A DNA stretch of 64,000 nucleotides, taken from Agelas oroides (lineage: Eukaryota; Porifera; Demospongiae; Agelasida; Agelasidae). Each line of letters begins with the position of its first letter. Within the stretch, counting starts at the first letter, position 1. The notes under the pieces were generated by a model. The model was not told where the DNA came from. It was given only the letters and a program-made list of their open reading frames with translations, and ran no database searches. The translations under genes were made by a program, and so were the position numbers. The stretch spans positions 24,877,316 to 24,941,315 of the forward strand of contig OX422183.1 in the NCBI GenBank assembly GCA_949130485.1. Direction: 5' to 3'. Of this stretch, positions 25,012 through 63,657 are shown piece by piece.

Positions 25012-26184
25012 TCATTGTTTATTCTGTATTAGTTTTCTTATGTTCTTCCGATGCATTCGGCTCTTAATACCGATCTCTATTAGCACTTGATCAGATGCTT
25101 CGCTCAACATTTCACCATCAATTTCATTTCTTTCAAGCAGCAGCTGATATTGTGCATCCATATCATGTGCCTTTAGCAAATTCACAACCTCTGCCACAGG
25201 ATACTTTTTAGCTAAATCACTGGGTCCTAAAACTTCTCTTCGGAATGCTATGCGGATCTTTAGCCGATCTAATGCACTCTGGATGCCTATGTCCTTGAGT
25301 ATTTCATCTGTAGCTCTAAGTAGCAGATCACCATCTATTCCATTCTCTTGGAAAAATAGTACATAGTGTTCCATATCCAGTGCCCTGCACAGAAACTCAG
25401 CCACTTCTGTTGTTGTGCTGCCTTGTGTATCTCTCACTCCAGCCTTGTACTTTTGTATCTGCATTATTATTTTCAAGCGGTCGAGAGCACTTTCAACCCC
25501 AATGCTCTGAAGGTCTTCGTCTGCAATCTCTTGTAGATTCCCTTCAGTTACCTCCTCATGAGCAAACAAGCTTAGATGCTTATGCAAGTTGATCTCCTTA
25601 AGAATTGTTGCCATAATATCGGTTGGTCCATCTACATTGATCAGAAATAAACAGTATTAGTGATTTGAGTAAACATAAATGCATGATATTGGTAGCAAGC
25701 TATATTACTAAAAGAGAGCTTAAAGTAGGATTTTTGTGCTTTTATGGTTTGATTATACAATTTGGTCATATGCTAACATGAAGAACTTTACAAGTACTTG
25801 TGTTACCAGCAGATAAAATTATTCATGGCCTGATGTGTATAGGCTCTTTGACCATTATACTGATCCTATTAACCACACTATTCACCTTCAACCCATTCAT
25901 CTGCACCAGAGTCCTCTTCTGAAGGATGCCAGCTAGTTTCTGCAGAAGAATCGTCTCCATGTGCAGAGTATTCATCCAGGTAAGTGTCATCTGTGCAGTA
26001 CCCTGAGTATTCCTTGGATATAACCTGTGTGTTCGCTTCTCCCCTAAAACTCCCTCCAGGCACTCTTTGGACATGTCCCATTCGTTTCTTCCACAGGTCT
26101 GTCACAAACTCCTCAAACTTTGTGAAGTGTTCCTCCTCTCTTCTCTGATTTGGTGACAAAAGTCTCTCAACTTCAAGTGTCAGC
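25012..26184 (-). CDS. RNF213-like gene, block 7: acidic linker and three SAM domains
   Basis: Exons 53-54: 25886-26184 and 25012-25631 (stop). Residues 4009-4313. Exon 53 ends the RNF213-type helical part (LTLEVERLLSPNQRREEEHF) and continues as an Asp/Glu/Ser-rich linker (DDTYLDEYSAHGDDSSAETS...). Exon 54 encodes three sterile-alpha-motif repeats of about 60 residues. SAM1 reads LKEINLHKHLSLFAHEEVTE...DEDLQSIGVESALDRLKI. SAM2 reads ALDMEHYVLFFQENGIDGD...DEILKDIGIQSALDRLKI. SAM3 reads AHDMDAQYQLLLERNEIDGE...DQVLIEIGIKSRMHRKNI. SAM domains form homo- and hetero-oligomers. RNF213 ends at its C-terminal domain, so this tail is an addition. Exons 52, 53 and 54 join in phase (AG|G and G|AT). Confidence 0.9.
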
Positions 26185-29100
26185 CTGTGAAGCACAGTGT
26201 GTCGTCACACATTTTCCATTCAAACTTAAAAATCTAGCCAGCCCTGCAAGACCCAAGCTATAGGTCAGGCACATATTGCTATACCGTTCATTGACTGCAT
26301 TTGAAATGACAGTTGTACAGTAACCTGAGTACAACTAAGCCATAGAAATCCCATACACCAGTTAATGGACTAACCTCCTCAATGCAACTCGAAACGCAAC
26401 ATAGTGATGAACTTGTACTGAGTCAGGAATGAATGCCACCAGTGCACATTCGTCTCCTTTTTGTACACTCAAGTGGTTTGCAATCGGTTCCTATATATAA
26501 AATCAAACGACAAAGTTTCAAACTTCTATACAATGGTACTGTTGTCATTCCAAGGAATGACTAGCCATGGTGACATGAGCAACAGTGGTGGAGTTTGTAC
26601 CAACGTATAATAGGGTTGAGAAATGGTAGTAAAACAACAGTTGACATAAAAATATTGGGACTAAAAAGAGGGATAGCCAGTGTGAGACTTTGTAAGGTGT
26701 TAGGTGGCATCATAACCAATTGTGCTAGCAGAAACTGTGACCAGTTATGGTGAAACAATGCTTGGGATGTTTTTACAGACTCAAGCGGTAGGCATCCATT
26801 TGGAGCAACTATAGTAAGTAAACAGACCTGTATGTAGGCTAGCTATCTGATAGCATTTCACCTGCAATGTGTGAATGGGTCCAACACTCATAACATATCT
26901 TAATCATTAGCATGTTCTCTTTTTTTTTTGGGTAAATGACAGCACTTGGTATATGAACCATGGTCACTGTATTCTGTGTAAATGACCCTTGACTTTGATC
27001 AAGTTTATAGTTCTTGCTTTCATTGATCTTTTTGCAAGCTCTCGCCAACCTCAGTTGCAGGTCATATAGTCATATAGCTGCTTTAGTGCACCATATAGGC
27101 ACACAATACTTGCAGAGTTCAAGTACTGTGCCCTGAAGAAAACTATAGCATTGTAGTTGAAACATTGGCCTTTGATGATATTTTGATGTGAAATTTTGTG
27201 GTTGATAAAATACACAACTGCATGACCACCTACTGTAACAGCAGGAAGGCTCACTGCAATGCAGTTATTAAGTTACCTGAGGGTTGGTGCTGACTATTTT
27301 GACAATGTTAGGCTCAATGTGGTTCAACAAGACTGTGATATGTTTCAAGTCCCTTAGTAGTTCCATGGGAGTACCTAATACAAAGAATGGAAGTATTATT
27401 ATGGATTACAACAGTATGCCTACATAAAGTGTAAATGTGTGTGATTGTGCGTTTATACCATAGTCTTTAAGTTGCTGCAGCTTTTGCTCATCCTCTTCAC
27501 TTAAGTGGGATTTGGTTGCGTAGGGAAGAGATTGAAAATCATAGTAGCCATCTTCAATCCATTGCACAAATACTTGCAGTGCATGGTAGACATTCTGTAG
27601 CTTCATGTCCAAAAAACATGAGAGTTGATGTGCTGAAAGGCTAAACGAAGAAAGGTAAAGGGTTTTAAAAAGCATCCATGCAATGATAACATAATTGAAA
27701 GCTAGTCTTAAAATCACGTCATGTCATTGTACATCTCCACTTTACTGTTGGTATAATGTCACTTTTATCTATTCTGGTTAAACGTCTATATACAACAAAA
27801 GTGTAACAAAACCTTGTAAAGCCAGCCCTTTTGAAAGCATCACTGGGTTCTTCACTATGATAAACTTCACAAAAGAAATTCTTGAGGGTGTCCACTCTCA
27901 TGAGAACGTCATCACTTCTGTGAAGAAACTGCAATTGAACACATATACATAATTATGGATCAGTGTAGTACATGCAGATAGATGTGAAACATACATCAAT
28001 CAGGTATTGTGCGGATGTAGTCAAACCAGTCACAACTTCGTCATATGTCTCCAATGATTCATTGTGAAATCTATACTCAAGTGTTTTGAGATGTCCACCC
28101 AGTGGTTGCTGCATGGTGGAAATCGAAAATGATAAAGTAAAGATAATGAGTACCATGAAAATAGTGAATATGATTACCTTGTATTCTTGTGGAAGCTTAT
28201 GATTGATGTTAGCCAATTCTTGGGCAGCATTTCTACAAAATGTGGCGTAAGGAACCAGCAATAGTAAAATACCATATAGCCGGAAATGTTCATGGTAATT
28301 ATAATCCGTGATTTATAGTACAAAATGTTTGCAGATCTAAAGTTTGCAGTTTACTTACTATTTTCAGCGAATGCACAGAGATTTCGGGACCGATCCTTTC
28401 AGCAGTGCATAGATTCACTATAGAAGTAGTATGTTGCCTTGGTAAGCGCATGCTCAGATGCACACTGAGATCCTCTGCACAGTAGCTTTCATGATTTGAG
28501 AGTTTCGTTGCCAGGCCAGCCTGAGACTTGGTTATTGGGTTCGCTGAGGTTCCAGCTTCAGTAAAAGCACAGACTCAGAGAAAGGCAGGCTCAAAGTCAA
28601 AGTTAGGACGTATAGAGTGAACAGCTGTAAAACTTTAGTACCACATCAAAATCACATCCTGTTCTAACTTTCGCAACTGAACAAGTATAGCCTGTCAATA
28701 AAGCATGGGTGAGTTCATTTGTTTGCACACTTGTAGTAAGTTCTCTCTGTAATGCCTATGAGTTTCTCACGTGATAAATTTATACCTGGCTCTCCCCTTT
28801 TTTCAATTTTTCGTTTGTGCATGGGGAGAGCCTCGGAATGAGGCTAAGACAAGAGTATACCAAATCAAAATTGTAGGCTTGTAAACTTGTTTATATCTAC
28901 CAAGTTAGAGTAAGAAAAGGGCTGATTTCCCTGAGGTCAAGTCACTTACTCTGAGAGATGTGCCCTAGTACGGTTAGGAGGAACTCGAAAGCAGTATGGG
29001 ATGTGTTGAGTAGATGGGTTGTGTATTTGAGGTTTGCCACTTAGAAAGGTGGCAACAATATCTTGTAGCAGCCAGTGAAGATCAAACTGTGGTAAAGTAG

Positions 29101-32100
29101 CTGGAGTATGATCTTCCTCTCCAATATTGGGTACAATGCATCTCCTTCGTATTAACTGCAGATATTTGCTTTGCTGATAGATTCTGTGAGGGAAAGAAAG
29201 TTGAATGTGGCAATTAAAGAGATTTTGTTTCATGTGGCTATAGCTAGAAAAATGAGGTACTGGATTTCCCGTTGCCTGGCAAGCCCTTAAATTGGTTTGG
29301 CTACATCAATCTTCTCATTTATTTACCCTTACCCTTCTTCCCAAATGAAAACAACGAAATGATAAACGAATAGAGATTGATACATTCAGTAAACATCAAA
29401 GGCTAGTTCAAACTATGACCTATTTAGCTGTAAAAGTGGCCAAAAGTGGGTTTGCAATAATCACCAATTGTGTGGCAAATACTTCAAAATGTAATTCATC
29501 CATTATATATTATAGTCGCCTATCAAATGACAGTATTCATGTGCAAAAGGAATAGACTCTTCAATGCTGAGCAAAGTACATGATCATAAGAGTGCAGAAG
29601 GTAAGTAACTGTCTACACATGAAACAGACATTGGACACACACTGTGTGTTATGCGTTCATATCGGACCACATTGCCATTGTTGCACCAGGCGTCAATAGG
29701 AGAACAAAATATTGTTCTATTTGCTATAATACTGTGCTTACTTGCTAAAGTTTTCAACAGATGAAGTGTTCTCTGAGACCTCTGGCAGGTGAACTTTATT
29801 TGCGTTAGCAAAGACATGGCAGCACAGTGGTTCATGGGAACAGCTAGCAGCTACCTTAGACAACAACTCCATGATGTGGTTGTGTGTTTTTACCTGAAAT
29901 AAGATGTTTGATAAGAATTAGTTACACACAAAGAATGCAGTTTATATTAAAGAACATTCTCACGTAAGCGAGTGATAAATAGCTGACAGAATGCATTATT
30001 CATAAGAATCAAGCATATTTGAATAGTCTCACGGTTGTATTGTGCACAAGGAAAGTAACCTTTATAAGGTGTGTACAGACCTTTCCAAGTTGCTTGACAC
30101 AGTAGTGATATTAGAGTAACAGGTGTTTTCTGAATGCATATTAAAGGCCAATGCCCATTTACTATTGCCTATTCCCTATTTACCTATTTCTGCAGTCAAA
30201 CAAGTTGCAAAGGTCTGTAAAGTGGTGTGATATAAATGATTTAGTGCATTGCTAGGTGATTGCTAGGTGATTGCATCCTTGTTGTGACAATTTTATTAAA
30301 TTAAATGCTGATACTGTTATATGAATAAGGTAAATGCATGTCTAACTACTGTAAAAGAGAAAGTTATACAAAGCTAGATACGTTGTGTGTATAACACCAA
30401 CAGAAGTTCCATGTGCATATTTTATTCTTTGGCTGCATGGATGGCTGTGATTCTGCTTCAAGATGGACGGCTACAAGATCAGTAAAGACATGCTCTCCTT
30501 TGATGACATCTACTAGTAGATGTTGGTGTGTGGTTGACTGATAGCTGAGTTGAACTGTCAAAGAGGGTTTATCTCAAACAACATTAAATAGTAACTCTTT
30601 CCACTTTGTCAATTCCAACTTTGCCACTTCCTACTTGCTGTTGAGCACGAAGGTTAATGGTATCAATCTACTGACGGAAGAAGACACAGCAGCTTCAGCT
30701 TCTATCATTAGTGAAATCACCTACTCAAGAACATGGACAAACCCCCCTCCTGCATTACAGGATAGAGACAACAGACTTTGCACATGCACAGGGGAAAACA
30801 TCAACATCCTTGGCTCCATGCATGCAGCCTTGTGGAGCACAAGCACCAGGAAGAGCAGCTATGCCTACTACATGGTTGTTGCTGGCTCCATACTAAGCTT
30901 AATAGGATTAAGCTAGACTGGAGAAACTTGAAACATCTGCAAACAACACCACCAAGTGCCCTGCAGGAGGGTTTGGACAGGCATGCTGAGGTGATCAAAG
31001 GGTCAGTGAAGGGTCTTGTGACAAAGCTTTAGGTTCTGTGAGCATCACTGGATGTGGTTTAGACTTGTAAACCATGCATCCAAAGTTGACTGTGTGCACT
31101 TCTACATCGCACTTGCTGGTGCCTCTTGAGCTTGAGTAATGTACTGGCACTCCACTTTCTCAAGCATGCCCGTACTGTTGCATACAAGAGACTGTCTTTG
31201 CTGTTGTTGCATAGTTACATTGTTGGCACAGATGTTACACTCCAAGATGCATAACAAACAACTGATGTAGATAATACAGAGCCCAAAGAAATGGATATTC
31301 TTTAATGTCGTGGGTACTTACTCCATGCAGGAAGAAAATGTTTTTTCACCAGCAAGCATCCCTTCACCTGCTTATGTGATATCACACTTTCCGAATGCAT
31401 AAATAAAATCATTGCTATGTATAGTGAGCCTACCTCAGGTACATTAAGGCCTGACTGCAGTTGTTCTAAGGATTCATGTTTACACTAGCACAATGTATCA
31501 CTGGAGCGCAAACGATATTATGATGCTTCAGTTTACGTAGCATGCATTAGTGTTGCCCACGTGGCTGCTTCTGCTTTGTATGGTACACTAACTAACTGCT
31601 GGAATGTGCTCTAAGTAAACCATGATGTAATATTTGCTGTCGTGGCCGCATAATGGCCACTCGAAACGAAGGTCCTGACTACCTTGCGTTAGGTGGCTGA
31701 TTAGACTATCTCCGTTCCTCATGATTGTCACTAAAAACGAACCACCAAAGGTTTGTCTCACTTTGGCCTCTTGGACTTTTGCATGGTATGCATGAAACAG
31801 CAGCTTTAGGCTGAGTTGTGCTGCCTAGAAGGCATTATAAGCTGGAAAATGTACTTCTGCAAGCCATAACATTAGAATGCGGAGTACTCCGGCTTTTCCC
31901 AAAAGCTTTTTGTAATGATCCCTGTTACATCTAGTACCTGTGAAGCACAAAAGCAGTTAGACTAAGTGGAAGATGGCTGCCTCGACGAAAGTTTGTTGAA
32001 CGAGTGCGCGAGTTTGCTGGGCAATTTGTTTACCATAGTGACATCATTGGTGGGTGTGGTTGCAAACACAAATGAAGCAATGTCCATACTATCGAAAGTT

Positions 32101-35100
32101 TGAAGTAAAAAGCTTGAACAGTTTTTTAAATATGACCAAGAATATAACACTTAAATTCAGCTAAAATTCTGTGAGAATCCATATCAGTACTACAAGTTGC
32201 ACAAGAATGTGCCATGCCTGAGTGTTCAATAAAATCAAAGGTTTGTACGTATGATAAAATTATTGCCAAGTGGGAAGCGAGGCAAATAATCGTGCACTGT
32301 GGGGTCGAATCTCAGTTTCGTCTGGAATGCAATCTACAGCGGCGTGCATGTGTGATCACGAGGTAGAAACGGAGTCGGATGCAGAGAGGAGGAGATTAAC
32401 CGGGGTACTAGTGCAGCGACACCGTCGAGCAGAGGATGATTCCTGAAGGCAGCAACGAGAGGCTGACCGACGCCGATAGTATAGCAACAACTTCATTCGT
32501 GCCTACATTGGTCAGCCTCTAGTCATTGCTGCATGCCTCCGATGGTGTAGCTTCACTCATATCATGGTTAATCTACGAGTGCAGTGACACCGTTGAGCAG
32601 AGCATGATTCCTGGAGGCAGGAACGATGAGAGGCTGACCGAGGTAGACACACGTAACTGTTATATATGCAAAGCTCAATACCTCGCTTCCTGCAAGGCTC
32701 TCCTGCGCACATTCACGTATGCCCTAGTTATCACAATTCATTTGTTACCAGTTGCATTGTTACTCGTACTCAGTGTTGTTTCAGTTTAATGTTCGGACTA
32801 GTAGTTTAGTTTTAGTTTAATTAGGCTTCAGATTCAAACTGTTAGTTTAGTTTTAGTTTTAATTACTAAATCTGAAAAGGGTTAGTATCGGTAGTTTTAG
32901 TTTTGGTTAACTACAATTTTTGGGTGATTTCAAATTAGTTTAGTTGTAGTTTTTAATTAACGGACTAAGGCAGCATCGATTTTAGTTTTAGTTTAATTAC
33001 TAAAAGGTTTTATGCCTTACTAAAATGCATTTTAGTTTTGGTTTTAGTTAACTAAAACAACACTGCTCGTACTGCACACTCTAACAATACAGACGGCAAC
33101 AAACTCGTAGTATTATCGGTATAGCTTAGTACTATGGTAACAGTTATATGGTCTTAATTATTGCATCATCCACCTGAGTTACTGCACTAGCTGTGTCTAT
33201 ATCAGATATTGAACTCTCCATGTAAATACCTGGCTTGACACCAACAGCCTGGGTACAAGGTTAGTAAATACTATACTGTGGTTTCACAAAGTTGTAAATG
33301 AATTTTCCCAGCAACCACCTAGCAATGCATGTACTATAATCCTGTCTCCGTGCACAGTAGAACAGTAAACACTGCACTTACCAAGTCCATAATAACCTTG
33401 TAGAGTTGATCATTACTTTTCTGATCACTTTGCAACGGGACTGACAACAGCTGGATTACAAGTGTATTATCTTCAATCTTGAACACCCTTGGGTTTAGTA
33501 GAGCATTGTCATCATCTGGGATAACTCCAGTAGCGTGTGCATACTGGTTGAAGTGGTCTGCAGTTACAAGAGAGTACAAATCATAAATTAATAAGTACCA
33601 TACCATTTGCTGTCACTTATTGTAAGCATTTCACTGTCAGTTCTTGCTACAAAAAAACTGGCTAACCTTCCTGCTCCATTACACACTGAACATGCATGCT
33701 ACTAACCTTTCACAGAATGAAAGAGATGTAACTTTTTCAGTTTTTCATGATCATTCTGGTAGTACTTTTCCAAATGTGCCATTAGCTGCTTCACTGTTGT
33801 TTTTTGTGCAGTGTCCCTGGAAATCATGTGGGCTAAATCTGTGTGTAGCCACCAGTACAGGTCCACTAGTTCAGGGAGCAGGGAGTGTGCTAGTTCCAAG
33901 CGTGGGTACTCCAATGCAAATTGTAATAGTAGTTGAATACATGGATCCTGCTCATCAGCAAATCCCAAGACGTGCTGCAGGAACTCGTTTTCTGTTGGAA
34001 ACTTTGGGTAACGGATTGCCATTAGCCTGACAGAGATGAGCACAATTAGTTGCAACAAGTTCATAAATACACTGCAAAAACAAAGTTGTTATTTTAGCTA
34101 AGTATTTGGTTGTTACAATTCCATGACTATCCTAGTATGCAAATTAAATGAATGCAGTGCTGGAAAAGAATTCATGCAGTGGGAGCTGATACTTGAATAA
34201 ACTTTACTAGCCTCCCATGCACAAAATGTTTTACAAGCACTACATTCTTTGAATTAGTGTAGGAAGGACAGTCACACAATTGTAGTAACCAAACGATTAG
34301 CTAAAACTTTTGTTTTTACAGTGTATAGTCTACATTACAAATACAACTAACCTGATATCTTGGAAGCTTTTATGATTACAAAGACCAGAATGAACTAGAA
34401 ACTGTACAGAAAAGGGATCAAGAGATCTTAGTAAGACACTATTGTTGTACAAAAAATGAAACAGTTTCTACCTGATCATCCATTTCCTGCTTGCTTGGTG
34501 TAAAGATATGTGTATGCCACCAGTGTTCATAGACATTCAATTTGTCTTTAGTGTCAAATCTTCCATGAGGTGATCGTTTGATCACAAGGGATTTCTAAAC
34601 ATACAGAACACAAAAAGTGTATTTGACAAATGTCCTATTGAATTAATGGGGAATGTTAATACCTGAAGTAGTGAATTGGAGCATCTCTGTATCAAGAAAG
34701 CCAGTTCTTCATCCAGTGCAAGAAGGTTGTTTCTCATATATGACCACAGGGAGCGGACTTGTGAAATACAGTATGAACGAACTGGCAAGTCATCAGAGAG
34801 GAGCATTCTCAGTTGCTCTTCAGTATTTTGTTGTGTAATCAGACCAACACAAAATGCACTGAAGTTCATCCAGAGCAGAAGATACAAGGAATGTAAGCTA
34901 AGAGTGCCTCGTGTTGCATGCTTGTGGTAGCTATGCTTGGCATAGATTCCACCACTCTTTAGCTGGACTCCATAATTGTAGAAGGTACCCTTTTCTCTGG
35001 AGACTGGTGCATCAAACTGTACAATAGTAACATGTAAGGTAGGAAATTGGTTGACAGTTGGATATTGCAGTAAGCCTGGGCAAGCCTGGGCAAACTTCAC

Positions 35101-38100
35101 ACTAGCAAGACTGCATTGTGCATGTGTGGGTATGTTTGCTTGCTTCATTGCTTGAACTGGCCACTTATAAGGATTGAATGTCCACATGCACTTCCAACAT
35201 TGCTCAACTGAGAGAGTAAAAAGGTCACTGCACACTGCAGTGCAAGAGACCAAGAATGCGCGCACTTATTTCTTGTTTCCATATTAAAGCTACCTCAAGA
35301 ACAGACTGACAGATTGACAATGTAAGATGGTCACAAGTGAGAGGGTGTCGCATGCAGAGGTCTATTCAAGTAACAGTCATGCATGACAATAACAAGCTAC
35401 ATTGCTCACACTCAGAAGTGCTTGCTCATGGTTTGATTAGAGTGTGAAGCTTAGACCTAATGCACAGGCTATAAAACTCTTTGTAAGCAGCTACTTGCTC
35501 AGATTCACTCCATGATAATGAAGCATTAGTTCTTATGGTACACTAACCAAGAATCCAGTCATGTAGGTGTTGGCAAGAGCATCTGGAGAGAACAAATGCC
35601 ACCACAGATGTGTTGTCTTTTCAGGACTACCCAGCACAGCAGCTACCACATTTGCAATTGCGTGCCTAAGCTCAATGTCTGAAGAAACTGCAAAGGATAC
35701 AATTATTTACACAGTTCTCCATAACACATGCTGTAGAATTTCACAATACTAGTACTTTTCATTCAACATAAATACCAAAGGGAGCAACAATACAAAGACA
35801 TAAACGACTTACTCAGATGATCCGAATCGGATGTATGAAAAAGAGCATAAAGTGGGTCTTGCTCATGTCGTGAAACATGAGGAAGGTTCTTTGCAACATA
35901 TTCATGTCTTGCAACCATTAAATCAGGATTTAAGAAGCACTGGATCAGCTGAGCATACTGCTCTCCTCCAAGCAGCTCTACCATCTTCTTCTCCCGGATT
36001 GCTTTAGCTAAATCTTCTGACTTTACCTGGAGCAAGGTATAAAATTAATCTTATCCTTGTGAGCTGTATAAACAGGTTGCTAGAATTGCTTACATTCTTC
36101 TTGTAAAATTCATGATAAGTACATAACCACAGGAACAATCTTGTACAAGCTGCTTTTTCTGCCTTGATATGTGATGATGATGTTATTGGAAGATGATCAT
36201 GGCTGGAGAAATAGATAATTGAAGTATGTAATGTAGAAGTAGATCCATGCATTCGTTATGGTACATATGTATCTTACAGTTTCTTCTCAGTAAATCTGAG
36301 TAGTGCCTGGATCTTTGTTTTTGTTGAGGCACCACTACAGTAGTGTACATCACGCATACATTTGCATAGCTGCTGATACAAATTGGACAACGTTATGGTA
36401 TCTTGGGACTGCACCCCTTCTGGTAACATGAATGGGAAAAGATGACAACTGGGCAAATTCATCCTTTCAACCTAAAAGAATAGAAAAAAGACAGTAGTGC
36501 ATGGCTATAAATAGCAATGTTTGTTCGCACTTCTCAGTAGTGCATGGCTATAAATAGTAACGTTTGTTCGCACCTCTTCACTTTCGCCCTGATGACGACT
36601 GAAGCATTCAGTCGAAACGTCGGCAAGTTATTTTCCGAGCTCAAGTTGGTACCACATAACCTCTTCATGTTAAGGGTATCTGAGTATACTGTTAACGTCC
36701 CACACATCCTAGAGGCAACTACTGTAAGCTCACACTCTTTCAAGCAAGCACCCTCACGGTGAATGCCTTTGAGGTATGTCTTTAGTGAGCTTTAGTTCGG
36801 TCATCGAGTATTTTTGCATTAAAACACATATGTGCATGGAAGCACTAGCCTCGTTTGTGGGAACCCTTTATTCCCATGTTTTTGATAAAAATCTAAACGG
36901 GTCATCCCCTGCCACAACTTGATTATGATTCAAGTTATTTCGATGCAGACCATTCAGCTTAGTACCAATAGTTGCTCCAGATCTTGTGTAGTACACAACC
37001 ACAGTTGATGCCATGCATGCCCCTGGATGGCCATGTCAGTCATTGTAAATACTGTTGACCTTGTAATGACACTAATGTAATTGAAACGCCTCCTCTTTAA
37101 TTTAGAGTACAAAAAGAAGTATGTTTAGCACAAGCCTATCGTATGTATAAATATGCAGTAAGCCAAGATTCTTGGGTCACTGGATGCATCTTGGTGTGCA
37201 GTTTAGTCTTGTTACATGCATCGTTAGCATACCTCTGAACAAAGAAATGGTTTCAAGCAGTTGATATCCATCAGAATGTTTCCATCTGGTAGGCGAAGGA
37301 ACTTCTCAAAGCTTTTCATTTGCCACACAGTGTGCATGGCTAATGCAACTCCATGTCCAGAAGGTTTGCCATCAGCTCTGGAGCCTCCCATTTCTTCATC
37401 ATCAAATAGGCAATTAAGTTCATCTTTCAATACAACAATTGCCTGCAGTACAGACAATACCAGAGCGGTGAATGGACAAGTCAATACATATACAAATCCT
37501 GCATGGTAAATTGGGCCTGTAGACTGTGGACTCCCAGAATCGCAGACTCACACACTGAAAATATTCTACAAGTGGACTGCTTTGTTCTTTGTCAACACAG
37601 CATGTGCAAAAAGTTAGCAAATGAACTAGGAATGCATTCTATCTGAAGTTGGAGAAGAGTTATGGATACTAGTACGCTTTGTGAAGGACTTTCCTAGTTG
37701 TCCTAAAGCTACACCTATGAAGATGATGTTAGTCTAAAGATACTGGAAACAGTTTGCCTGTGAGATTGAACCATGCTCTATATAGTTGGTCTCACATAGT
37801 CAGATTTTGTGTCTTAGATTTTGTTCGCAGCTTTGGAGAAAACTCCACAATGGAAGCTGGTTTGAGGCTCCAGCCATGCTATCTGTTGAGAGTCTGGCTA
37901 CTTAGTTAGACTAATATACTCTAGCTTAGGCACACAGAGTCTGTGAGATTCATATGGCTAAGGGCTTTCCATCAAAAATCCCTTGTTCAATCTCCAGGGG
38001 AAGCATGTTTAAGCATTGGGAGTGGGACTGCCTACTTCAATAAATAAGCACTTGGTTTTCTTTTAATGTTTGCTTTCAAATGTTTCTTAGTCTTCTAGTC

Positions 38101-56100: not shown

Positions 56101-59100
56101 AACTTGCGCTCATGCTCAGAAACTCAGGTATAACTGATTCACACATTACACGAGGACGTCGGGATGATATTTCTTTGCGATGGAGGACTGGGAGGACAGC
56201 ACGGCTGGGCTTTCGCAATGTACATATTTGGTGGAGTCAAGTGCAGAATACAGCCGATGGCGACTCTGTGAATAAAAAGCAAAGAAGTCAGTCCACCGTA
56301 GAAGCCATGAGAGCAAGAAGAGAACAAGAAAGAGTTCAAAAGTAGAAAGCACGTATTGGAGAGTCTTCACAAGCCAGGTATTAGGCTCACTCTTCACGTT
56401 TGGTACTATTTTTTGGGCTCCCACTAAACCAGCAACGCACAATTTCTGACACCTGCTCCACGCGCCCCACCCACTTGTGCAATGCGCATATATTATAAAT
56501 AGACACACTAGCACATGGCACAGCACGAGGCATCATACGCATGCGTACTCCTAGTTTAAAAGTACTACAGTGTAAAAACATTTGGGTTACTTCAACCATA
56601 TTTTGGTCATCTCAGTTGCACAATAGTGATGTCAACTTGCGCTCATGCTCAGAATGTCAACTTGCGCTCATGCTCAGAAACTCAGGTATAACTGATTCAC
56701 ACATTACACGAGGACGTCGGGATGATATTTCTTTGCGATGGAGGACTGGGAGGACAGCACGGCTGGGCTTTCGCAATGTACATATTTGGTGGAGTCAAGT
56801 GCAGAATACAGCCGATGGCGACTCTGTGAATAAAAAGCAAAGAAGTCAGTCCACCGTAGAAGCCATGAGAGCAAGAAGAGAACAAGAAAGAGTTCAAAAG
56901 TAGAAAGCACGTATTGGAGAGTCTTCACAAGCCAGGTATTAGGCTCACTCTTCACGTTTGGTACTATTTTTTGGGCTCCCACTAAACCAGCAACGCACAA
57001 TTTCTGACACCTGCTCCACGCGCCCCACCCACTTGTGCAATGCGCATATATTATAAATAGACACACTGGCACATGGCACAGCACGAGGCATCATACGCAT
57101 GCGTACTCCTAGTTTAAAAGTACTACACTGTAAAAACATTTGGGTTACTTCAACCATATTTTGGTCATCTCAGTTGCATACCTGCTGTGTAAGTGAAACA
57201 TTAGCTATGGACTTCATCAAGGGATGCTTACAATTTGAATCAAAGTGTAGTTGAGAAGCTTCTCCCTTTTGTTAAATTAGGATCATCTTGCAGAAAGCCT
57301 ATAAATCAGCATTTCTGGTAAGGTTTGGTGTTTCTTAGATCCTACACATCCACCCGTGGAGGAGTTCCTTGGTTGCATGGTTGCATGGTTATGGTAGAAA
57401 TGCCAGGAATGTAGCCAAATAGCTAGGATTTCTGCAAGAAGTTCCTAAGTTAACAAAAAGGAGAAGCGTCTCAACTACACTTAAGCTTTCAATCAAATTG
57501 GAAGCATCCCTTGAAGTTTGTAACGTGTCATGTACACAACAGGCATGCAGTTGAGATGACCATAATATGGTTGAAATAACCTAAATGTTTTTACAGTGTA
57601 CCACTCCCTCGATGACAATTGTCCACAGTAGCAGTTGTAGGTCTCAGTGTGAATGTGGTTATTCTAGCTCAAATGCCCTCACAAGAAAATGTAGTTGTAA
57701 AACCATGATGACATTCAAATGAAAAATTAATGGACTTGTTTCTTTCTCTGTGAACCAACAGGACAGTATGGCATAATTAAGATTAACAATAATTCTTCTC
57801 TAAGACCACTTTGGTTCACTAACCTGCTGATGAGGTTTGCAAGACCAGTTCTTCAGAATTTCAGGGTTGCAGAAGTCCGTTACCTCTTTAAGCATTGCTC
57901 TCATTAGAGTTGATCCCAGGTAAGATGTATCCTCAGCTCCTGGTACAGAACGACCCATGTTGTAGTTAAAGGCAGGACAATTGTCAAGAAATTTACACCT
58001 TCGATGCATGTACCTAAAATGAAAGTTATAAATGCATAATCTATGAAACATCTAAATGGGATGTCACTTCCAAGACTACAAAAATAGATACCCGTAACAA
58101 TAGTGATTAAATTTGCAATTACATAAAACACTACCATTGGAATCAAATGTTAGTAATAAAAATAAAAAAAAAGGACATAAAAAGCAATAAGCCATGGAGG
58201 TGACATTCTGATCACAATAACAAAGGGTTTCGTGAAGGAATTAAAACAATATTTCATAACAACCATAACTGCTAACATTACACCCAATGTAGATACCTGA
58301 TGTAGAGCTTCTGAATGATCTTGCTCTTCCTGATTTGTTTTGACATTTCATCCAGAAGAAGTTTGTTGCATTCTGGCTGTGGAATATCCTTTTCGGTGCT
58401 AAACTTAACAGGTTTGCCCTCTCTCTTTCTCATTATTCCTGCAGCTGGAATGATAACATTGGCAACAATTAGCCCATGTTACATACGTCTGCAATGCTAT
58501 AATACTATATACATGAGAGAAAATATTGCGAACTTGGAATGTGCAATCCTTAGGTTACTTAATTACTTTCTGGTCATACTTAGTGTTACCTATCATAGCT
58601 TTTCCTCAATCTTTGTGAACATGCTTAGTAAACATAATGGAATTTATTCTGTAAACTTTATTGTTTTTATACTACACAAGGCTGAAAACATTTATAACTG
58701 CTGGTTCTCCTGGAACAGGTATGTAGGAACTGTTCATTGGTTTGATGGCAATGTGTTACGTAGTTAACTGCACCTACCAAAAGTCATCCCTATTCAATGT
58801 CTAATTATTGTGATCACAATGCTATCAGCACTTGCAAAGTTTACTGAAGTAAAGTTCACACAATACAGTGCTATGATACAGATACCACTTAGAAAAGTGT
58901 GGCCAGAGAGTTTGCACAGTTAGAAGAGGAAACAAGGTGTGATTTATCAATGAATTTTGACATACAGAGTATACAATTTTGTGAACAAGTGGTTGGACTG
59001 TCACTTTCAAGCTGTTTGCAGATAAGTGTTAATTAAGTGGGCAAATTTTGAAGGTATGAAATCGCCAAGAATACAAGCTGTGTTGCGATGTTGAGGTTTG

Positions 59101-62100
59101 TAATGAAAGTCTAAAATTAAATGATGAATCAATTCCCCTGCAGACACAGTTTGGCCTGCTGTGATTAGAACTTGAAGGGTACATGGTTAAAAAGGTACTT
59201 TCGTCCATTAATTCCATGCAGATTTGTGATTCTCACTCATTACTAAGCTTTCAACAGTCATGGCTCTCAACCAGTGGACACCTGTCCAATTTTAAAATAA
59301 TTTAATGATTATTTTAATACATAACTAGTATTTACACTCTGTAAAATTTTAGCAGTATCATTTTCATCCAAACCACAGCCCCAAAATCTCAATCACTACA
59401 GTATAACCTCACTTTCAACATAAAGGCGGTTAATCCATAGGAGAGTTCGGTCATGGTATGCCCTCAAGTATTTACACACCAGCTGCACATCATTATCAGC
59501 AAAAAGATGTGCCTGGTGGTCAATCAAATGTGGAGTGCCAAGTAGTCTCAAGATAGGAATTTCTGATTGGAAATGGGATAATGATTTCTTTGAACTTGTA
59601 GTAGAGTCATCAGATATATCTTCAGGCCAGCAACTGCAAGGAACCTGGGATCAGAGACAGGTAATAAAGCAATAACTTAAGTGTTACCACACCTACACGG
59701 GGTGTATCATGTCATTACGTACTATGTATTTACTTAGTTAGTTTTGGTGTGTGGGTCAGCAGTAGAAGGAACTGCGAGGAAAAGTCAGCAGGACAGATTA
59801 GCAAAGGGCTGATGTTCAGTACTCAAGTCTGAACACAGCAAGGTCTGAAAAGACCATTTAACAAATTACACACACAAAGAATGATGGCTGGTGACCATTC
59901 TCTGGCATCCTGACTTCTGAGTAGCTGAGTCTGAGTTACAATCAAATACCTTACCATTTAGCATACTAAATTACCTTAGGGTTACTATTATTAACGGGTC
60001 CAAATTTTAGCGGTTTTGGAAAATAGCGGATTTAGCGGGTATTAATTTTAGTGATTTTGACATTTTAATCTAGATATTGGAATGAATGTAGCAATTAATT
60101 TAATACTGGCGAGTACAATTTTTAGTGAAAAATAGGCTATTTGCTAAAATTACTAAATTAAATACCCGCAATCCTTTAGGTATCAAAAGCATATTGGTCA
60201 TTTGGAAAGTACACGATTTTGTATTAACTGAAATTGAAAGGTGCTTTCTGTCCACTAGTTCAGTTTTAAAGTAAGCCTCACCTCCACATATATAGTCCAG
60301 GATAGATCTCCTGGCAAGCGAAAAGACAGCCCACTATCCCTGTCTTCCACATACCCAAGCACAAGCAAATCAAAGAAAAACCAAGATATGGAGTCTATCA
60401 GAATCTTGTACTTTTCTCTCTCTTTAGGTTCACAACCCTGCAAGAAGTGCAGAAGTCATCTCAATAGAACACCATGTAACAGCTGTTGTACAGGCATACA
60501 TACCTTATAATCAGATGGAAGCAACGTGAAAGTGAAATTGAAAAACACAATAGGCCTTTTTGCATCTTCTGGTAATGAAGTGAGCTCAAGTATTGTACCC
60601 GTGGTAGTGAATCCCTCATTAACAGTTATTGTAACAGAGGGGTATTCCACTCTATCTTGTAGCATTCTTCTCACAAAATGTGTTTTTCCATCCCCTATAG
60701 TGAAGAAGTACGTACAATATCAATCGCAGAGTACACACAGCTAGAGCTGAAGTATTCAGGAATACCTGGTCGTCCATAAACAAGATAAACAGCTTCAATA
60801 TCAGTAAAAGGCAGAAGTCTCTCTCTGCATATCCTTGTAGTATTTTCCACAGATACTAGAGGGTCCATGGTCTAATGTATAAAGTAAAATTTATGGGGAT
60901 CATTTGGAAGTGTAATATATACATGCATGCATGCATGAGTAATTAACAAGCTATGTATTTACACAGTAGTAGATATGTGGCTTATGTACGTACCTGGTGC
61001 TCCTTTAGTTGGATCCATGGAATCTCTCTGAGAGATGATGGCGACATTTCAATGCAATGTAAAGTAGACTCGAGTGAGGTTTGAGCCAGAGCCTGTTGGC
61101 TTTCAAAGTGTTGTACAAATACCTACAAGTGTCAAAGATGTGTTTGCTCTATATTTATACATATTGAACCCACTGTGATGCAAGCTAAACTGTTAGCTGT
61201 GAATAATCTAAGATATAAAACACACATAGAGTATCTGCAGCTGCCCAACAGCATTATGGCAATAGGCCTATAGGTTACATAATACCCATGTGTTCAGTTA
61301 TATCAGAGCTGTCTGACTAAAGGAAATCTAGATCATTTGTGCTCACCACCTTTTGGCACTGTAACTGGGTATCTACATGTACGTTGTCACTGGGTAACCT
61401 TCTCAGCTGTGATCACAAATAGAATTGTTAAGTAGCTGTTGTTGATTGTGATTGTAGTTGGTAGACAAAAGCAATGAATGTGTTTTGTTTGTTAAAGCAT
61501 GAGTTTGTGCATGAATTTATGTCACATGTATGGTAAAGTGGCAATAGACAGTGAACACAGACTTCTTATTTCACCATTTACTCCCATAGATTCATGGCAG
61601 TGACAAAGCACTCAAAGAACCTTTTGGCATAATGGAGAGGGCTTCCATCTCTTAAAGTAGGCGCTACATGTGTTCAAATCTCTTAGTTGTTCCTCTGAAT
61701 TAGGCACATGGCAACACTGTATATAAATATAAAAGTATTCTTGCTCCTTAATAATTATATAAATAACTTTAAACCCTAAATTTTTCCACTTGAGACTACT
61801 TTCAGCCTATGCATGGCGTTAACCCACCGTATTTCCATTTCTGTCCAAGGTCCGACTCCAAACTGAACCCAAGTCCACTTACAGCCTTAATAAGCAGACT
61901 TGTAAGCTTAGCCACGCCCACTCATCACTAGTCAGCATTCTCAGTTGGCAAACACCCACTTAGAGCCCAAGCCACCTTCCCTGCCAGATATGAACCCCCA
62001 AAGGGTGAGAGTAGCATTTTCTAGGCCTGTTTGTGCAACCAGGGCGGGAATTGGCGCACTCGGTGCCACCCATGGCTCTTTACAGCCAAGCCTAGCAGCT

Positions 62101-63657
62101 GCCATGTGCACAGCAGCCCATGGGTGACCCCACCCACCTCCCCCTGCGCAGTGTGATGTAACCAAGCTTACATCTTGCCAAGCTTACCTCTTGCAAATGA
62201 AGGGAAAGGTTGTTTACACCAAACATCATGTATGTCCTAGCATGTTTCCAGATCCGTTCTACAAATCGCTTAAGGTCCAGCTCGGTTGTATCTGAAGAGC
62301 AGCGAAAAAACTCAAAAGATTCAGGTACACCTTGGTAGATTCCAAAGATGATGCTCAGTAACTGAGTTTTGTCAAACCCAGGAGTGTAATGGAGCTCCAC
62401 TGATACAACAAATTGATGCGCAGATGACCACGAAGGAATAGAAGTTGGTGTATGTTGTACAGTACCCTTAAGATACCGTTTTGGAGTACAGAAGGTTGTC
62501 AACTCGACATCATTGAGAAGTGATTTCAAAAACTCTCCCACTTTTGGCATTGGCATGGGACAACTGGGCTGTTGTTTTTCCAGTACTTTCTGAAAGAGGA
62601 TAAACCAAAGATATATAATGAAACGTAACCAATATGAAAGGTATAGTGTAGTAGTGAAATAGGCTGTACACATGTTGGTCACAGTAGAACCTGACAAAGT
62701 GTTGTTGCCTGTAGGGATGCTAATGCTTTTGTAAATGTGTTTGATTTGTGAATATATATTCAAAGCTTTTCCTACCAAACATTACTGTAGACCACACATA
62801 ATACCTTAATAGAAGACCTCAGCTGATCCTGTGCTGGCTTGTCAGTACGAAAGAGAAATGCTATTTCCTTTGCAACACTGTATTCAACTACCTGTGGCCA
62901 CTTTAGCAGGCTTTCATGTACTTTTAACACCTTTGGCATAGTGAAGAAAAGCAAGTGAGGATATTGGTTGTTCCATTCTTCAATTTGATGTTTCCAGACA
63001 TTGAGACTATTCTGTGCTTCCTCAACCTGTCGGTAGTAATTTCAACATATTAATTGAAGTAAGTTTAGGGTGTATGCTAACTCTTCAAAAACGTAATCGT
63101 AACCATTACCTTCTTTTCCGCAACCTGGTCATCATCTGAACAAGCAAGGACTTTAGCTGGTGAAGTTGTATGCAGGTAATCAGGATGACCAAGCTCCTTC
63201 AGTGTTGTAAACAAACCAAGTAGCTTTTCAGCTATCTATATAAAGATAACAAGACACATTTTCCAGTACACAACTAAACATCAGCAACAGAAAGTAGACA
63301 CTTATATATACTTACTTCAATCAGACGCTGAAATCTTGTAATTTTTTCTGAACGATGAGTTTTATCCTGATCCAATAATCCAAGCATCTGCTCAAAGCTA
63401 CTAATTTCCTCACTGTCCCATGTCTTGGTATGGGTGGTGACACATGGCCTTTCTTTGGATACTTCCTGGACAACACTGGCTTCCTCTAATTGCACGTGAT
63501 CACTGCTTGCAAATTCTTTTGTTTTATGTGCAAATGGATTGTATTCTAAAACTAATCGAGGTGGTGTGTAAATACCACCATCGTCAACAAGAAACTTAAA
63601 GAAACCTGTCTGAAGAACATTTTCCAAGTCAGTTTTTGCATTCTCCAAAGTATCACC
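25012..63657 (-). CDS. giant RNF213-like AAA+ protein with C-terminal SAM domains (54 exons, N-terminus outside window)
   Basis: I joined 54 exons on GT-AG borders. Their 12,942 nt stay open to the stop at 25012, and every junction is phase-matched, encoding 4,313 residues. Exon positions are listed block by block in the next seven entries; residue numbers there count from the first visible codon. Domain order matches vertebrate RNF213 (a roughly 5,200-residue dynein-like AAA+ ring with an E3 module, linked to vascular disease, lipid droplets and intracellular immunity): AAA2, AAA3, AAA4, degenerate AAA5-6, shell and C-terminal domain. Unlike RNF213, no RING or RZ finger is visible, and the chain ends in an acidic linker and three SAM domains. 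Introns run from 62 bp to 4.9 kb and hold many transposons. Two tiny exons (35294-35361, 33230-33248) are inferred partly from phase. The gene continues beyond 64000. Confidence 0.9.
26375..35361 (-). CDS. RNF213-like gene, block 6: shell and C-terminal domain, RZ finger not recognised
   Basis: Exons 37-52: 35294-35361 (tentative, chosen by phase), 34663-35227, 34472-34594, 34352-34401, 33707-34026, 33382-33557, 33230-33248 (19-nt microexon), 30382-30554, 29742-29893, 28950-29183, 28178-28232, 27995-28108, 27813-27928, 27459-27640, 27277-27374, 26375-26490. Residues 3155-4008. Exon 38 begins where RNF213 has the RZ finger (C.NGH...C...C..C), but shows EQCWKCMWTFNPYKWP with no matching Cys/His set. 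It then rejoins the family at RGTLSLHSLYLLLWMNFSAF. Later matches are ELAHSLLPELVDLYWWLHTDL, PQFDLHWLLQDIVATFLSGKP and the ETYDEVVTGLT helix. The intron between exons 43 and 44 is 2.7 kb and carries an antisense Gypsy remnant. Confidence 0.8.
28785..28845. mobile_element. hairpin fragment ending GAGGCTA
   Basis: CCTGGCTCTCCCC and GGGGAGAGCCTCGGAATGAG are inverted around a short AT-rich loop and end in GAGGCTA, like the ends of the 7210 element. It lies in the intron 5' of exon 28178-28232. About 500 bp to its left, at 28266, TACCATATAGCCGGAAA resembles the end of the 41196 element. Confidence 0.45.
30630..31035 (+). pseudogene. Gypsy-type retrotransposon fragment (protease region), antisense in intron
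   Basis: The plus-strand frame KVNGINLLTEEDTAASASII and SEITYSRTW, followed by NILGSM, aligns in pattern with the aspartic-protease region of Ty3/Gypsy polyproteins (E-x-DTGA-x-x-S-x-IS, then a YTGE...LG block). The usual DTGA is DTAA here. After a short gap, LDWRNLKHLQ...ALQEGLDRHAEVIKGSVKGL fits the linker before reverse transcriptase. Frames are broken and no LTRs or reverse transcriptase are seen nearby. It lies inside the 30555-33229 intron, opposite to the giant gene. Confidence 0.6.
32407..32646 (+). repeat. direct repeat of about 65 bp in intron
   Basis: (C/G)AGTGCAG(C/T)GACACCGT(C/T)GAGCAGAG(G/C)ATGATTCCTG is followed in both copies by GAGGCTGACCGA. The copies start near 32410 and 32580. 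There is no coding role. Immediately right (32790-33060) lies an AT-rich stretch with many TTTTAGTTT(A)ATTACTA-type repeats. Confidence 0.6.
35548..39495 (-). CDS. RNF213-like gene, block 5: E3-module equivalent without a RING
   Basis: Exons 27-36: 39307-39495, 38850-39233, 38682-38789, 38479-38601, 38192-38311, 37233-37442, 36278-36471, 36094-36202, 35813-36026, 35548-35687. Residues 2558-3154. In RNF213 this stretch holds the RING finger between the last AAA unit and a helical YLVRKLS block. Here exon 28 passes without break from a helical part (LVNQQRWKEIYGKDSTARGN) to FKFYLVRILSKGKDVSF, with no C-x2-C...C-x-H-x2-C...C-x2-C series. Only scattered Cys are present (for example LCKCMRDVHYC). 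Exon 36 (HAIANVVAAVLGSPEKTTHL, FSPDALANTYMTGFL) matches the RNF213 block just before its RZ finger. The call of 'no RING' is from reading, not a profile search. Confidence 0.8.
36492..36577. repeat. 43-bp tandem duplication in intron
   Basis: Two adjacent copies of CAGTAGTGCATGGCTATAAA continuing to TTTGTTCGCAC(T/C)TCT, 43 bp each, with three differences. They directly precede the ribozyme-like motif at 36588. Confidence 0.85.
36588..36626 (+). ncRNA. hammerhead-ribozyme-like core (degenerate, retroelement-associated)
   Basis: The plus strand reads CTGATGA, then C, a 5-bp stem GACTG/CAGTC with loop AAGCATT, then GAAAC. This is the arrangement of a hammerhead core (CUGANGA, helix II, GAAA). 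Eukaryotic Penelope-like retroelements are known to carry minimal hammerheads of this form. One extra C sits between CUGAUGA and helix II. Helices I and III are not convincing from the flanks (GAAACGTCGGCAAGTTA allows only a minimal helix III). It is probably a relic of a retroelement in the intron 5' of exon 36278-36471; activity is doubtful. Confidence 0.4.
39910..39940. repeat. long poly-G tract
   Basis: About 24 consecutive G, then GAGGGGGC on the plus strand (poly-C in the giant gene's pre-mRNA), in the 2.4-kb intron between exons 39307-39495 and 41885-42171. The length may be affected by sequencing or assembly. Apart from this tract and the 41194 element, that intron shows nothing supported. 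Confidence 0.85.
41194..41759. mobile_element. 562-bp MITE with perfect terminal inverted repeats
   Basis: The ends TACCGTATAGCCGGAAAATT(TGGCGGG) on both sides are perfectly inverted over 27 bp and continue imperfectly to about 45 bp with further TTAAATTTGGCGG blocks. The ends themselves start with TA, so a TA target duplication is likely. No transposase. It lies in an intron of the giant gene, and a decayed end-like sequence occurs at 28266. Confidence 0.85.
41885..45273 (-). CDS. RNF213-like gene, block 4: degenerate AAA5-AAA6 region
   Basis: Exons 20-26: 45031-45273, 44471-44839, 44169-44387, 43704-44092, 42447-43641, 42268-42376, 41885-42171. Residues 1621-2557. Family hallmarks are HTVILSQIDSIQESFYDLFN, VNPNFQCIVLLKESEL followed by PAPFLNRFEKY (RNF213: VHPNFRLIV...P.PLINRLEKH), LLLHFSDVVFGRSSYPSLFLGG and ENHELWDIYFSDFAREKL. 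No Walker A is visible, as in the inactive AAA5/6 of RNF213. Intron 23 is only 62 bp (43642-43703), the shortest in the gene. Its acceptor (gccaacag) was chosen because it alone keeps the frame (AG|A). Confidence 0.88.
45484..47040 (-). CDS. RNF213-like gene, block 3: exon 19, AAA3 C-part and AAA4
   Basis: A single 1,557-nt exon, residues 1102-1620. It opens with the AAA3 sensor strand FIIAACNPHRG and the HRLHPTLRYLMWDYGAL block (RNF213: IIAACNP..., VHALPPSL..L.WDFG). AAA4 follows: QALKENLFAIV, Walker A VGAPGSSKTLSF (about residue 1340), FYQCSRQTT, Walker B CVVLMDEAGLPEESLESLK (about 1415), sensor FVAITNHILDASKSNRA and FFGLRDF...LERNFNGTD. The GxPGSSK(S/T) and FFGLRD signatures are characteristic of RNF213, so this exon alone identifies the family. 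All nucleotide-binding residues are present, so AAA4 should be active. Confidence 0.95.
47114..52939 (-). CDS. RNF213-like gene, block 2: AAA3
   Basis: Exons 13-18: 52821-52939, 50087-50406, 49307-49587, 47918-47993, 47568-47695, 47114-47194. Residues 767-1101. Exon 14 carries a classic Walker A, VIIEGETGVGKTALVEML (about residues 861-880), preceded by YVLTLDYTIKMLSIHERRECR. This closely follows RNF213 AAA3 (SDY..KMLSIH.R...PVI..GETG.GKT). Exon 18 carries Walker B, VFLDELNTSTCGGIFKEII, equivalent to the FFDEANTT..I.CIKE of RNF213. Both motifs are intact, so AAA3 should be an active ATPase. In human RNF213, AAA3 and AAA4 are the main catalytic units. The introns on either side of exon 13 (2.4 and 4.9 kb) hold most of the local transposons. 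Confidence 0.88.
47195..47567 (-). other. intron of the giant gene, no feature
   Basis: AT-rich intron sequence between exons 47568-47695 and 47114-47194. I see no repeat structure or additional exon in it. Confidence 0.6.
48740..49045 (+). mobile_element. tRNA-derived SINE, copy D
   Basis: A near-complete family member. It has the leader CACTCAGCATGAATTCTCTC and ACTGAGGCATTCAGTGCCAC, A box TAGCTCAGTGGCAGA, B box GTTTGAATCC, a diverged tail, and the 3' end GTGTAGTGCAAGATGTTCTA(AGC). It sits in the intron between exons 49307-49587 and 47918-47993. Comparison with copy A defines a consensus of about 300-350 bp. Confidence 0.75.
52404..52506. mobile_element. 103-bp inverted-repeat fragment of the GAGGCTA-ended family
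   Basis: GTTCCCAGGCCTTCCCCGTT and AACGGGGTAGGCCTGGGAAC are inverted over 20-25 bp around a roughly 45-bp spacer, and the right end continues CGAGGCTAG. It resembles the ends at 7210 and 22774. It lies in the intron between exons 52821-52939 and 50087-50406, about 310 bp from the former. Confidence 0.6.
53319..55636. mobile_element. possible hAT-like DNA element, about 2.3 kb
   Basis: The left end, CAGGGCTGGTGGAGCAGGTC...GCCGGACCAAT, and the right end are inverted over about 48 bp. A CAGGGCTG terminus is common among hAT elements. No 8-bp duplication is visible (ctctctaa versus gtaaagca), and a third CAGCCCTG at 54036 suggests nested or partial copies. ORFs inside (53514-53789, 55258-55581, both plus) have no domain I recognise. 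It lies in the largest intron of the giant gene, between exons 57824-58013 and 52821-52939. Confidence 0.45.
56068..57182. repeat. 558-bp tandem duplication
   Basis: Sequence from about 56068-56624 recurs at about 56626-57182 with an offset of 558 bp and only a few substitutions (for example tagcacatggc versus tggcacatggc; ctacagtg versus ctacactg). The unit starts in a 25-bp minisatellite (ATGTCAACTTGCGCTCATGC TCAGA) and ends inside the left part of a MITE. The full MITE follows only the second copy. Very high identity shows a recent event, or possibly an assembly artefact. Confidence 0.9.
57124..57600. mobile_element. 477-bp MITE, TACACTGTAAAAA family, copy 2
   Basis: Inverted ends TACACTGTAAAAACATTTGG / complement of TACACTGTAAAAACATTTAG, each followed by GTTA(C/T)TTCAACCATATT(T/A)TGGTCATCTCA. 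Same family as 22091-22510. Its left 60 bp are also present as a solo piece at 56566-56624, captured by the tandem duplication. It ends 223 bp from exon 57824-58013. Confidence 0.85.
57824..63657 (-). CDS. RNF213-like gene, block 1: N-terminal arm side and AAA2
   Basis: Exons 1-12: 63316-63657, 63110-63235, 62805-63026, 62188-62589, 61347-61406, 60994-61122, 60766-60871, 60504-60694, 60282-60437, 59413-59644, 58297-58438 (or 58444; two tandem acceptors 6 nt apart), 57824-58013. Residues 1-766. A strong Walker A, VYGRPGDGKTHF, is assembled across exons 7 and 8 (about residue 460). The following strand reads RPIVFFNF where Walker B would have two acidic residues, so this AAA2 unit may bind but not hydrolyse ATP. 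The helical stretches before and after it (FGIYQGVPESFEFFRC, IPWIQLKEH, VQLVCKYLRAYHD, KFLDNCPAF) follow the RNF213 pattern. The donor at 59411 (aaa|gtgagg) is preferred over one 5 nt later because only it keeps phase. Confidence 0.82.
58445..59412 (-). other. intron of the giant gene, no feature
   Basis: About 970 bp of AT-rich intron between exons 59413-59644 and 58297-58438. A 150-residue plus-strand ORF here (58315-58767) overlaps the exon in antisense and has no recognisable family, so I do not call it. Confidence 0.6.
59982..60182 (-). mobile_element. about 197-bp MITE (copy 2, inverted relative to 4959)
   Basis: Begins CCTTAGGGTTACTATTATTA and ends ...CCCGCAATCCTTTAGG. Each part matches the complement of the 4959-5179 element, and TA flanks are present. 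It lies in the intron between exons 60282-60437 and 59413-59644 of the giant gene. Confidence 0.75.
61407..62187 (-). other. intron of the giant gene, no feature
   Basis: About 780 bp between exons 62188-62589 and 61347-61406. It is C-rich on the plus strand near 61850-62130, but I found no exon with matching splice sites and no repeat. The flanking exons join in phase 0 without it. Confidence 0.6.

Follow-up and report, generated by a model that had tools for sequence, protein, structure and literature searches.

The question raised by this locus is whether a giant gene that carries the ATPase core of RNF213 still encodes a ubiquitin ligase. The gene, here called W, occupies the minus strand of a 64,000-nucleotide stretch of DNA from the sponge Agelas oroides (the window, C1:24877316-24941315). 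It was compared with four paralogous loci, P2, P3, P4, and P7, and all searches covered this single genome of 259 Mb; W and the four paralogs are referred to as the five models. The predicted architecture is very probably an RNF213-type ATPase core, an E3-core and C-terminal domain (CTD) scaffold with neither RZ nor RING, and a C-terminal SAM array. The reading that we favor, and to which we give an even chance, is that W belongs to a lineage-expanded set of RNF213-derived giant AAA+ ATPases that lost RZ and RING, kept the core and scaffold, gained the SAM array, and would act by ubiquitin-independent assembly.

25012-63657, minus strand: the portion of the RNF213-related gene with SAM tail that falls inside the window, from the 49-exon model and tblastn conservation with the four paralogs; it extends upstream past 64000.

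ATPase Core

The initial annotation of the window rested on the signatures GETGVGKT, VGAPGSSKT, and FFGLRD, and all three are present in W and conserved in the paralogs. In all five models AAA3 keeps its Walker A, Walker B, and sensor stretch, AAA4 keeps its Walker A and Walker B along with a sensor and NR stretch, and FFGLRD is likewise present. The sole exception among the ATPase motifs occurs in P4, where one S of the AAA4 Walker A is replaced by T. When the spliced AAA3-AAA4 query was compared with RNF213 in the PDB by phmmer, an E-value of 3.3e-34 was obtained, with the Walker A and Walker B motifs of AAA3 in register. The 571-aa frame bearing AAA4 by itself matched nine PDB sequences, every one of them RNF213 (best E 2.9e-24). 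W is predicted to possess an RNF213-related AAA+ core with intact AAA3 and AAA4 motifs, whose parts are located as follows.

60504-60871, minus strand: two exons (60766-60871 and 60504-60694) that join to the Walker A-like VYGRPGDGKT, by position probably AAA2; from the translation, by eye.
50087-50406, minus strand: AAA3 exon with Walker A IIEGETGVGKT; phmmer match to PDB RNF213, GETGVGKT in five of five models.
47114-47253, minus strand: exon with the AAA3 Walker B VFLDELNTS; PDB RNF213 alignment and five-model motif comparison.
45484-47040, minus strand: 519-aa exon with the end of AAA3 and with AAA4 (Walker A VGAPGSSKT, Walker B VVLMDEAGL, sensor and NR stretch, FFGLRD); PDB RNF213 matches.
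41885-45273, minus strand: exons after AAA4, by position AAA5-AAA6; gene model.

No RNF213 match was found in the PDB search for the AAA5-AAA6 region of W. At the AAA2 position the counterparts of GRPGDGKT, read by eye in W, are GAAGVGKT in P4 and GVAGVGKT in P7, and the P2 and P3 models are uncertain here. In RNF213, AAA2 is a nucleotide-binding site without hydrolysis motifs.

RING and RZ Modules

The ligase activity of RNF213 has been reported to be independent of the RING and to be carried by the RZ finger (PMC7311170, PMC11549300). Since the RING is reported to be dispensable for this activity in those papers, the RZ would be the loss that counts in W. When the post-AAA exons of W, P3, and P7 were spliced and searched with Pfam, neither module was found, and motif patterns for the two found none in the five predicted proteins or in the gene-strand open frames (at least 15 codons, three frames) of the five loci. 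The absence of a RING or RZ pattern noted at the outset holds over this ground, and the profile match to an intact RING or RZ finger that had been set beforehand as a refuting outcome was not obtained in the post-AAA region of W. Across the genome, 11 RZ matches were obtained, of which none lies at the 14 SAM-type loci described below. This search was run exon by exon and a split RZ could escape it, yet RZ exons were found at nine other places. In W the RZ would be expected near the downstream end of 34721-39495, outside the profile-aligned block, and may have been replaced there.

34721-39495, minus strand: post-AAA region, by position the E3-back/shell; no RING or RZ motif, conserved in the paralogs.

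Downstream of AAA6, five Cys columns do not vary among the five models; they are scattered and form no zinc pattern. A RING-like stretch, CPIC ... CKIHMYHNEC at 36186-36392 on the minus strand, was considered and rejected. Its Pfam match to zf-RING_Vps41 (E 0.01) is below the cut-off, it is out of frame with the coding exon at 36278-36471, which is conserved, and the corresponding cysteines are absent in the paralogs, so that it appears coincidental by conservation.

Two of the 11 RZ matches sit in single open frames (C23:333212-333349, 1,860 aa; C19:4430863-4431003, 2,104 aa) and are possibly ZNFX1-like, which is a guess. RZ-bearing RNF213-like loci with weak AAA matches have also multiplied in this genome (C13:8.08-8.32, C8:4.58-4.65, C20:3.72-3.76 and 5.67-5.68, and C1:21.28-21.30 Mb). 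A genome-wide search for CBM_20 gave no matches, and thus none at the RZ-bearing loci either, with no working animal control for CBM20.

E3-Core and CTD Scaffold

The proposal that W had exchanged its E3 zinc modules for a SAM tail needs qualifying, in that the E3-core and CTD scaffold is still detectable as a diverged homologue and only the zinc modules were not found. A search of the post-AAA region against the PDB by phmmer and hmmsearch gave no RNF213, and the only match was a chance one to phosphofructokinase (E 0.093); the likeness was probably missed because the region is so diverged. As a positive control, the RZ-bearing locus at C20:5.66 Mb (hand-joined) matched PDB RNF213 over both the E3-core (E 4e-32) and the CTD (E 5.9e-31).

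Profiles were compared with hhalign, using the five SAM-type models as the query and the C20:5.66 Mb RZ locus with human and mouse RNF213 as the template. The E3-core and CTD were found to align over 334 collinear columns with a score of 52.4, a probability of 81, and an E-value of 1.2e-5 (for one pair). None of 99 column-shuffled templates reached 52.4 (maximum 24.6), and the reversed template scored 16.1. The CTD alone gave a probability of 24, an E-value of 0.00084, and a score of 33.0, with maxima of 21.1 for 199 shuffles and 19.9 for 21 other alignment blocks; the first run, made with a longer query, gave a probability of 15 and an E-value of 0.0018. These profiles are thin, at five and three rows, and the evidence that W retains a much diverged scaffold from which the zinc modules have gone is good but not overwhelming. 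The RNF213-type C-terminal helices of the initial annotation find support in the profile-profile comparison and its controls, and not in the phmmer and hmmsearch results.

27424-34720, minus strand (aligned block about 27995-34720): E3-core and CTD equivalent; hhalign to the canonical RNF213 profile.

C-Terminal SAM Array

Three SAM_1 domains were identified by Pfam within a single 206-aa exon of W (E 8.4e-30), as had first been read from the end of the chain. The AF2 model of this tail has the SAM fold, with a pLDDT of 84.5 and a pTM of 0.76.

25886-26490, minus strand: two exons between the CTD and the SAM exon (26375-26490 and 25886-26184, the latter an acidic linker); splice sites and paralog alignment.
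25012-25631, minus strand: terminal exon (phase-1 entry), which holds SAM3 at 25024-25197, SAM2 at 25252-25419, SAM1 at 25444-25605, and the stop; Pfam SAM_1, splice signals, and AF2.

The SAM domain is a common protein-protein docking fold. The nearest solved sequences to the tail are the tandem SAM domains of SARM1 (E 1.1e-7 for W and 3.7e-7 for P7), and the P7 tail also matches liprin-beta-1 (E 2.8e-6). With the three-SAM model, Foldseek placed liprin complexes on top, weakly (best E 1.7e-3; query TM of 0.38-0.43 for the leading liprin rows). The single SAM domains nearest in structure are those of tankyrase, BICC1, ANKS3/6, DGKdelta, and Shank, among which the differences in Z amount to ties and SAM1 of W is barely covered. 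The titles of matched structure entries name tankyrase SAM-PARP filaments, and the single-domain matches of highest Z are SAM domains known to polymerize. The case for SARM1 as the sole model for the tail was weakened, as liprin, caskin, and single SAM domains score alike structurally.

The SAM Exon across the Family

The initial annotation dealt with one gene and its three SAM domains. At least 14 loci, the window included, carry a W-type AAA and share this architecture: seven on C1, three on C3, two on C4, and one each on C5 and C23. Post-AAA and SAM matches follow downstream, on the same strand and in the same order, in all 14, the SAM matches lying some 14 to 66 kb away from the AAA match; two SAM_1 matches were found in nine of them. 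All five models enter the SAM exon in phase 1, after an intron that measures 213-386 bp in four of these and 2,026 bp in P7. The first Met of this exon lies inside the second SAM domain in P2, P3, and P4, and comes earlier in W (5 codons in) and P7 (23 codons in). The acceptor scores of the exon are middling in P2, P3, and P4. As judged from this linkage, the SAM tail very probably belongs to the same gene as the RNF213-like part. Phase 1 on both sides is frequent among the paralogs' linker exons, and the array was probably acquired by the joining of phase-1 exons.

Several related loci were observed in the course of these searches. A fifteenth place, C3:12602634-12615471 on the minus strand, has post-AAA and SAM matches with stops in the latter and no AAA match, and is perhaps a decayed copy. 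In P5 (C1:25365529-25365987 and 25369241-25369690, minus strand) a SAM pair is encoded by each of two exons, separated by about 3.7 kb, so there are perhaps four SAM domains. A cluster of similar SAM matches without AAA or post-AAA matches lies at C2:2438654-3001894 on the plus strand and may hold partners or another family; in this cluster, matches of L005 and L006 score equally. Finally, C5:7594841-7595419 on the plus strand is an AAA4-like match in a 547-aa frame with 35% identity. C5 has no RZ match and its nearest SAM_1 match is about 248 kb away, and this locus is perhaps a third type.

Selection

Ratios of nonsynonymous to synonymous substitution (dN/dS, Nei-Gojobori) were determined for four pairs among P2, P3, P4, and P7; for W against P7, synonymous sites are saturated everywhere but in the linker. 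The values were 0.08-0.24 for the SAM tail, 0.17-0.21 for AAA3-AAA4, 0.29-0.41 for the post-AAA region, and 0.42-0.60 for the linker. Purifying selection on the SAM tail is thus strong, and the constraint is about equal to that on the ATPase core.

Gene Model and Extent

The models were obtained with a purpose-written gene finder for GT-AG introns, for which the conserved stretches shared by the window and the four paralogs served as training data. A strict splice penalty was used, as a low penalty produced absurd micro-exons, and four repeat-like stretches (near 24.0-24.7, 48.8-49.0, 50.9-51.5, and 52.3-52.4 kb) were masked beforehand and received no conservation bonus. On the minus strand, the resulting in-window model of W spreads 4,319 codons over 49 exons, 25012-63657. 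Independently of the gene finder, window open frames from the exon at 63316-63657 through to the SAM exon match P2, P3, P4, and P7 by tblastn. These matches are mostly collinear and on one strand, with some exons lacking a match in some paralogs; the non-collinear ones near 48.8, 51, and 24.5 kb resemble dispersed repeats. Ten single exons of W, at least four of them from the N-terminal half, matched no Pfam family above its cut-off.

The single minus-strand gene of the initial annotation (54 exons, 4,313 codons in one frame) stands in this revised form, and its start at 63657 does not, as conserved exons were found farther upstream. The window edge at 64000 truncates the gene, and about 8 kb more sequence brings the model to about 5,100 aa. 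A conserved 381-aa exon at 64911-66054 shows 34-36% identity to P2, P4, and P7 (tblastn E 1.4e-62 to 5.7e-60), and a further conserved frame at 66466-67058 is followed by weaker ones. As its outermost exons are predicted unreliably, the model gives an approximate length and does not fix the start of the gene. The first exon of the 49-exon model (63810-63821, 4 codons) was discarded as an artifact of the forced start codon; it is gone in the extended model.

Two other features were noted in the window. Two near-identical copies with a step of 558 bp are seen in the open reading frame translations at 56142-57169, within a long intron of W, and a TatD-type DNase domain at 5606-6097 on the minus strand (Pfam E 8.7e-36) marks an unrelated neighbor gene.

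Comparison with Known Proteins

W resembles RNF213 (mysterin), an E3 ligase with a dynein-like AAA core, in the sequence and motifs of AAA3-AAA4, in the E3-core and CTD scaffold detected by profile comparison, and in length (about 5,100 aa, versus 5,148 reported for mouse RNF213, PMC7311170). It differs in having no detected RZ or RING (C4HC3 in RNF213) and in its C-terminal SAM domains. W shares descent with RNF213 but fails these two defining features, RZ and RING, and we therefore do not class it with the RNF213 ubiquitin ligases; a better description is a predicted RNF213-derived, SAM-tailed variant. Among the matches listed in a search of open-license PMC papers, no title or abstract opening describes an RNF213 protein with SAM domains.

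The NAD hydrolase SARM1 is similar to W by sequence alone, through its tandem SAM pair, which forms an octamer. W has an AAA core and its SAM domains at the very end of the chain, whereas SARM1 has a TIR domain; none of the 17 TIR matches in the genome lies near the 14 SAM-type loci. Ten TIR matches cluster on one strand at C8:9.00-9.64 Mb. The liprins (SAM123), compared over the SAM parts, also have three SAM domains in a row, but the structural match is weak and nine of the 14 loci have two SAM_1 matches. ZNFX1, which PMC11549300 names as the other protein with an RZ finger, has only the RZ history of RNF213 in common with this family, which is without RZ.

Possible Function

Vertebrate RNF213 is reported to coat intracellular pathogens through cooperative recruitment (PMC11549300). 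According to the same report, coating requires ATPase activity on each of the three pathogens studied and RZ activity on the bacteria, whereas the Toxoplasma vacuole does not call for the RZ; its authors considered oligomerization with molecules already in the coat. The family described here keeps the ATPase, lacks the RZ, and adds an association domain, from which we infer a ubiquitin-independent assembly factor. In the mechanism that we propose, ATP hydrolysis in AAA3 and AAA4 would shift the conformation of the scaffold and thereby expose or position the SAM array. Intermolecular SAM-SAM contacts would then assemble a coat, a ring, or a filament at the target, or would recruit a SAM partner, and assembly would be freed from the need for ubiquitin. 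Output through SAM assembly is plausible, with oligomerization as its conjectural part, and we put the chance of this mechanism slightly short of even. Because the vertebrate protein makes ATPase-dependent cooperative coats on pathogens (PMC11549300), the most likely role would be cell-autonomous defense through assembly and not ubiquitylation.

Four other explanations deserve consideration. The SAM exon could be a separate neighboring gene, duplicated along with the RNF213-like gene, as the early Met codons of W and P7, the middling acceptors of three paralogs, and the SAM matches without AAA on C2 might suggest. This is very improbable because the two parts are linked at 14 of 14 loci over C1, C3, C4, C5, and C23 in the same order and strand, the exon is entered in phase 1 throughout the five models after a mostly short intron, and no Met precedes the second SAM domain in P2, P3, and P4. 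That these loci are decaying or nonfunctional copies of RNF213 is scarcely credible: the post-AAA region and linker do diverge fast and the partial copy at C3:12.60 Mb has in-frame stops in its SAM matches, but dN/dS is below 1 in every part measured (0.08-0.60), the ATPase motifs are intact, the exons are long and open, and 14 loci share the same architecture.

The remaining two explanations concern how the protein acts. W could still be a ubiquitin ligase that transfers through another cysteine of the E3-core and CTD, or through a recruited E3, with the SAM domains as a targeting module. The scaffold is detectable, five Cys columns are invariant after AAA6, and the activity of RNF213 is reported not to need the RING (PMC7311170); we nevertheless judge this unlikely, as the RZ, the reported carrier of the activity (PMC11549300), was not found at the SAM-type loci and the invariant cysteines are scattered with no zinc pattern. 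Alternatively, the tail could be an adaptor for a different SAM protein, in the manner of SARM1, liprin, or caskin, such that an ATP-driven scaffold brings a SAM partner to the target with no self-assembly. The liprin complexes that come first, weakly, with Foldseek point this way, and the SAM pairs on C2 that lack AAA could be the partners. The single-domain matches of highest Z are polymerizing SAM domains, which argues against such an adaptor, but those Z values are ties and SAM1 of W is barely covered; we regard the adaptor as doubtful, though worth keeping in mind beside the assembly that we favor.

If assembly is the output, these loci might, as a tentative proposal, form a clade of RNF213 in which a separation of function has arisen naturally. 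The 14 loci would be a defense repertoire of one animal, in which SAM polymerization has taken the place of ubiquitin-driven amplification of the coat and a giant ring fueled by ATP assembles on intracellular targets without ubiquitin. The differing needs for the ATPase and the RZ reported for coat growth on bacteria and on the Toxoplasma vacuole (PMC11549300) are the question on which this family bears. The SAM-tailed family would let the coat-assembly step be studied separately from ubiquitin transfer.
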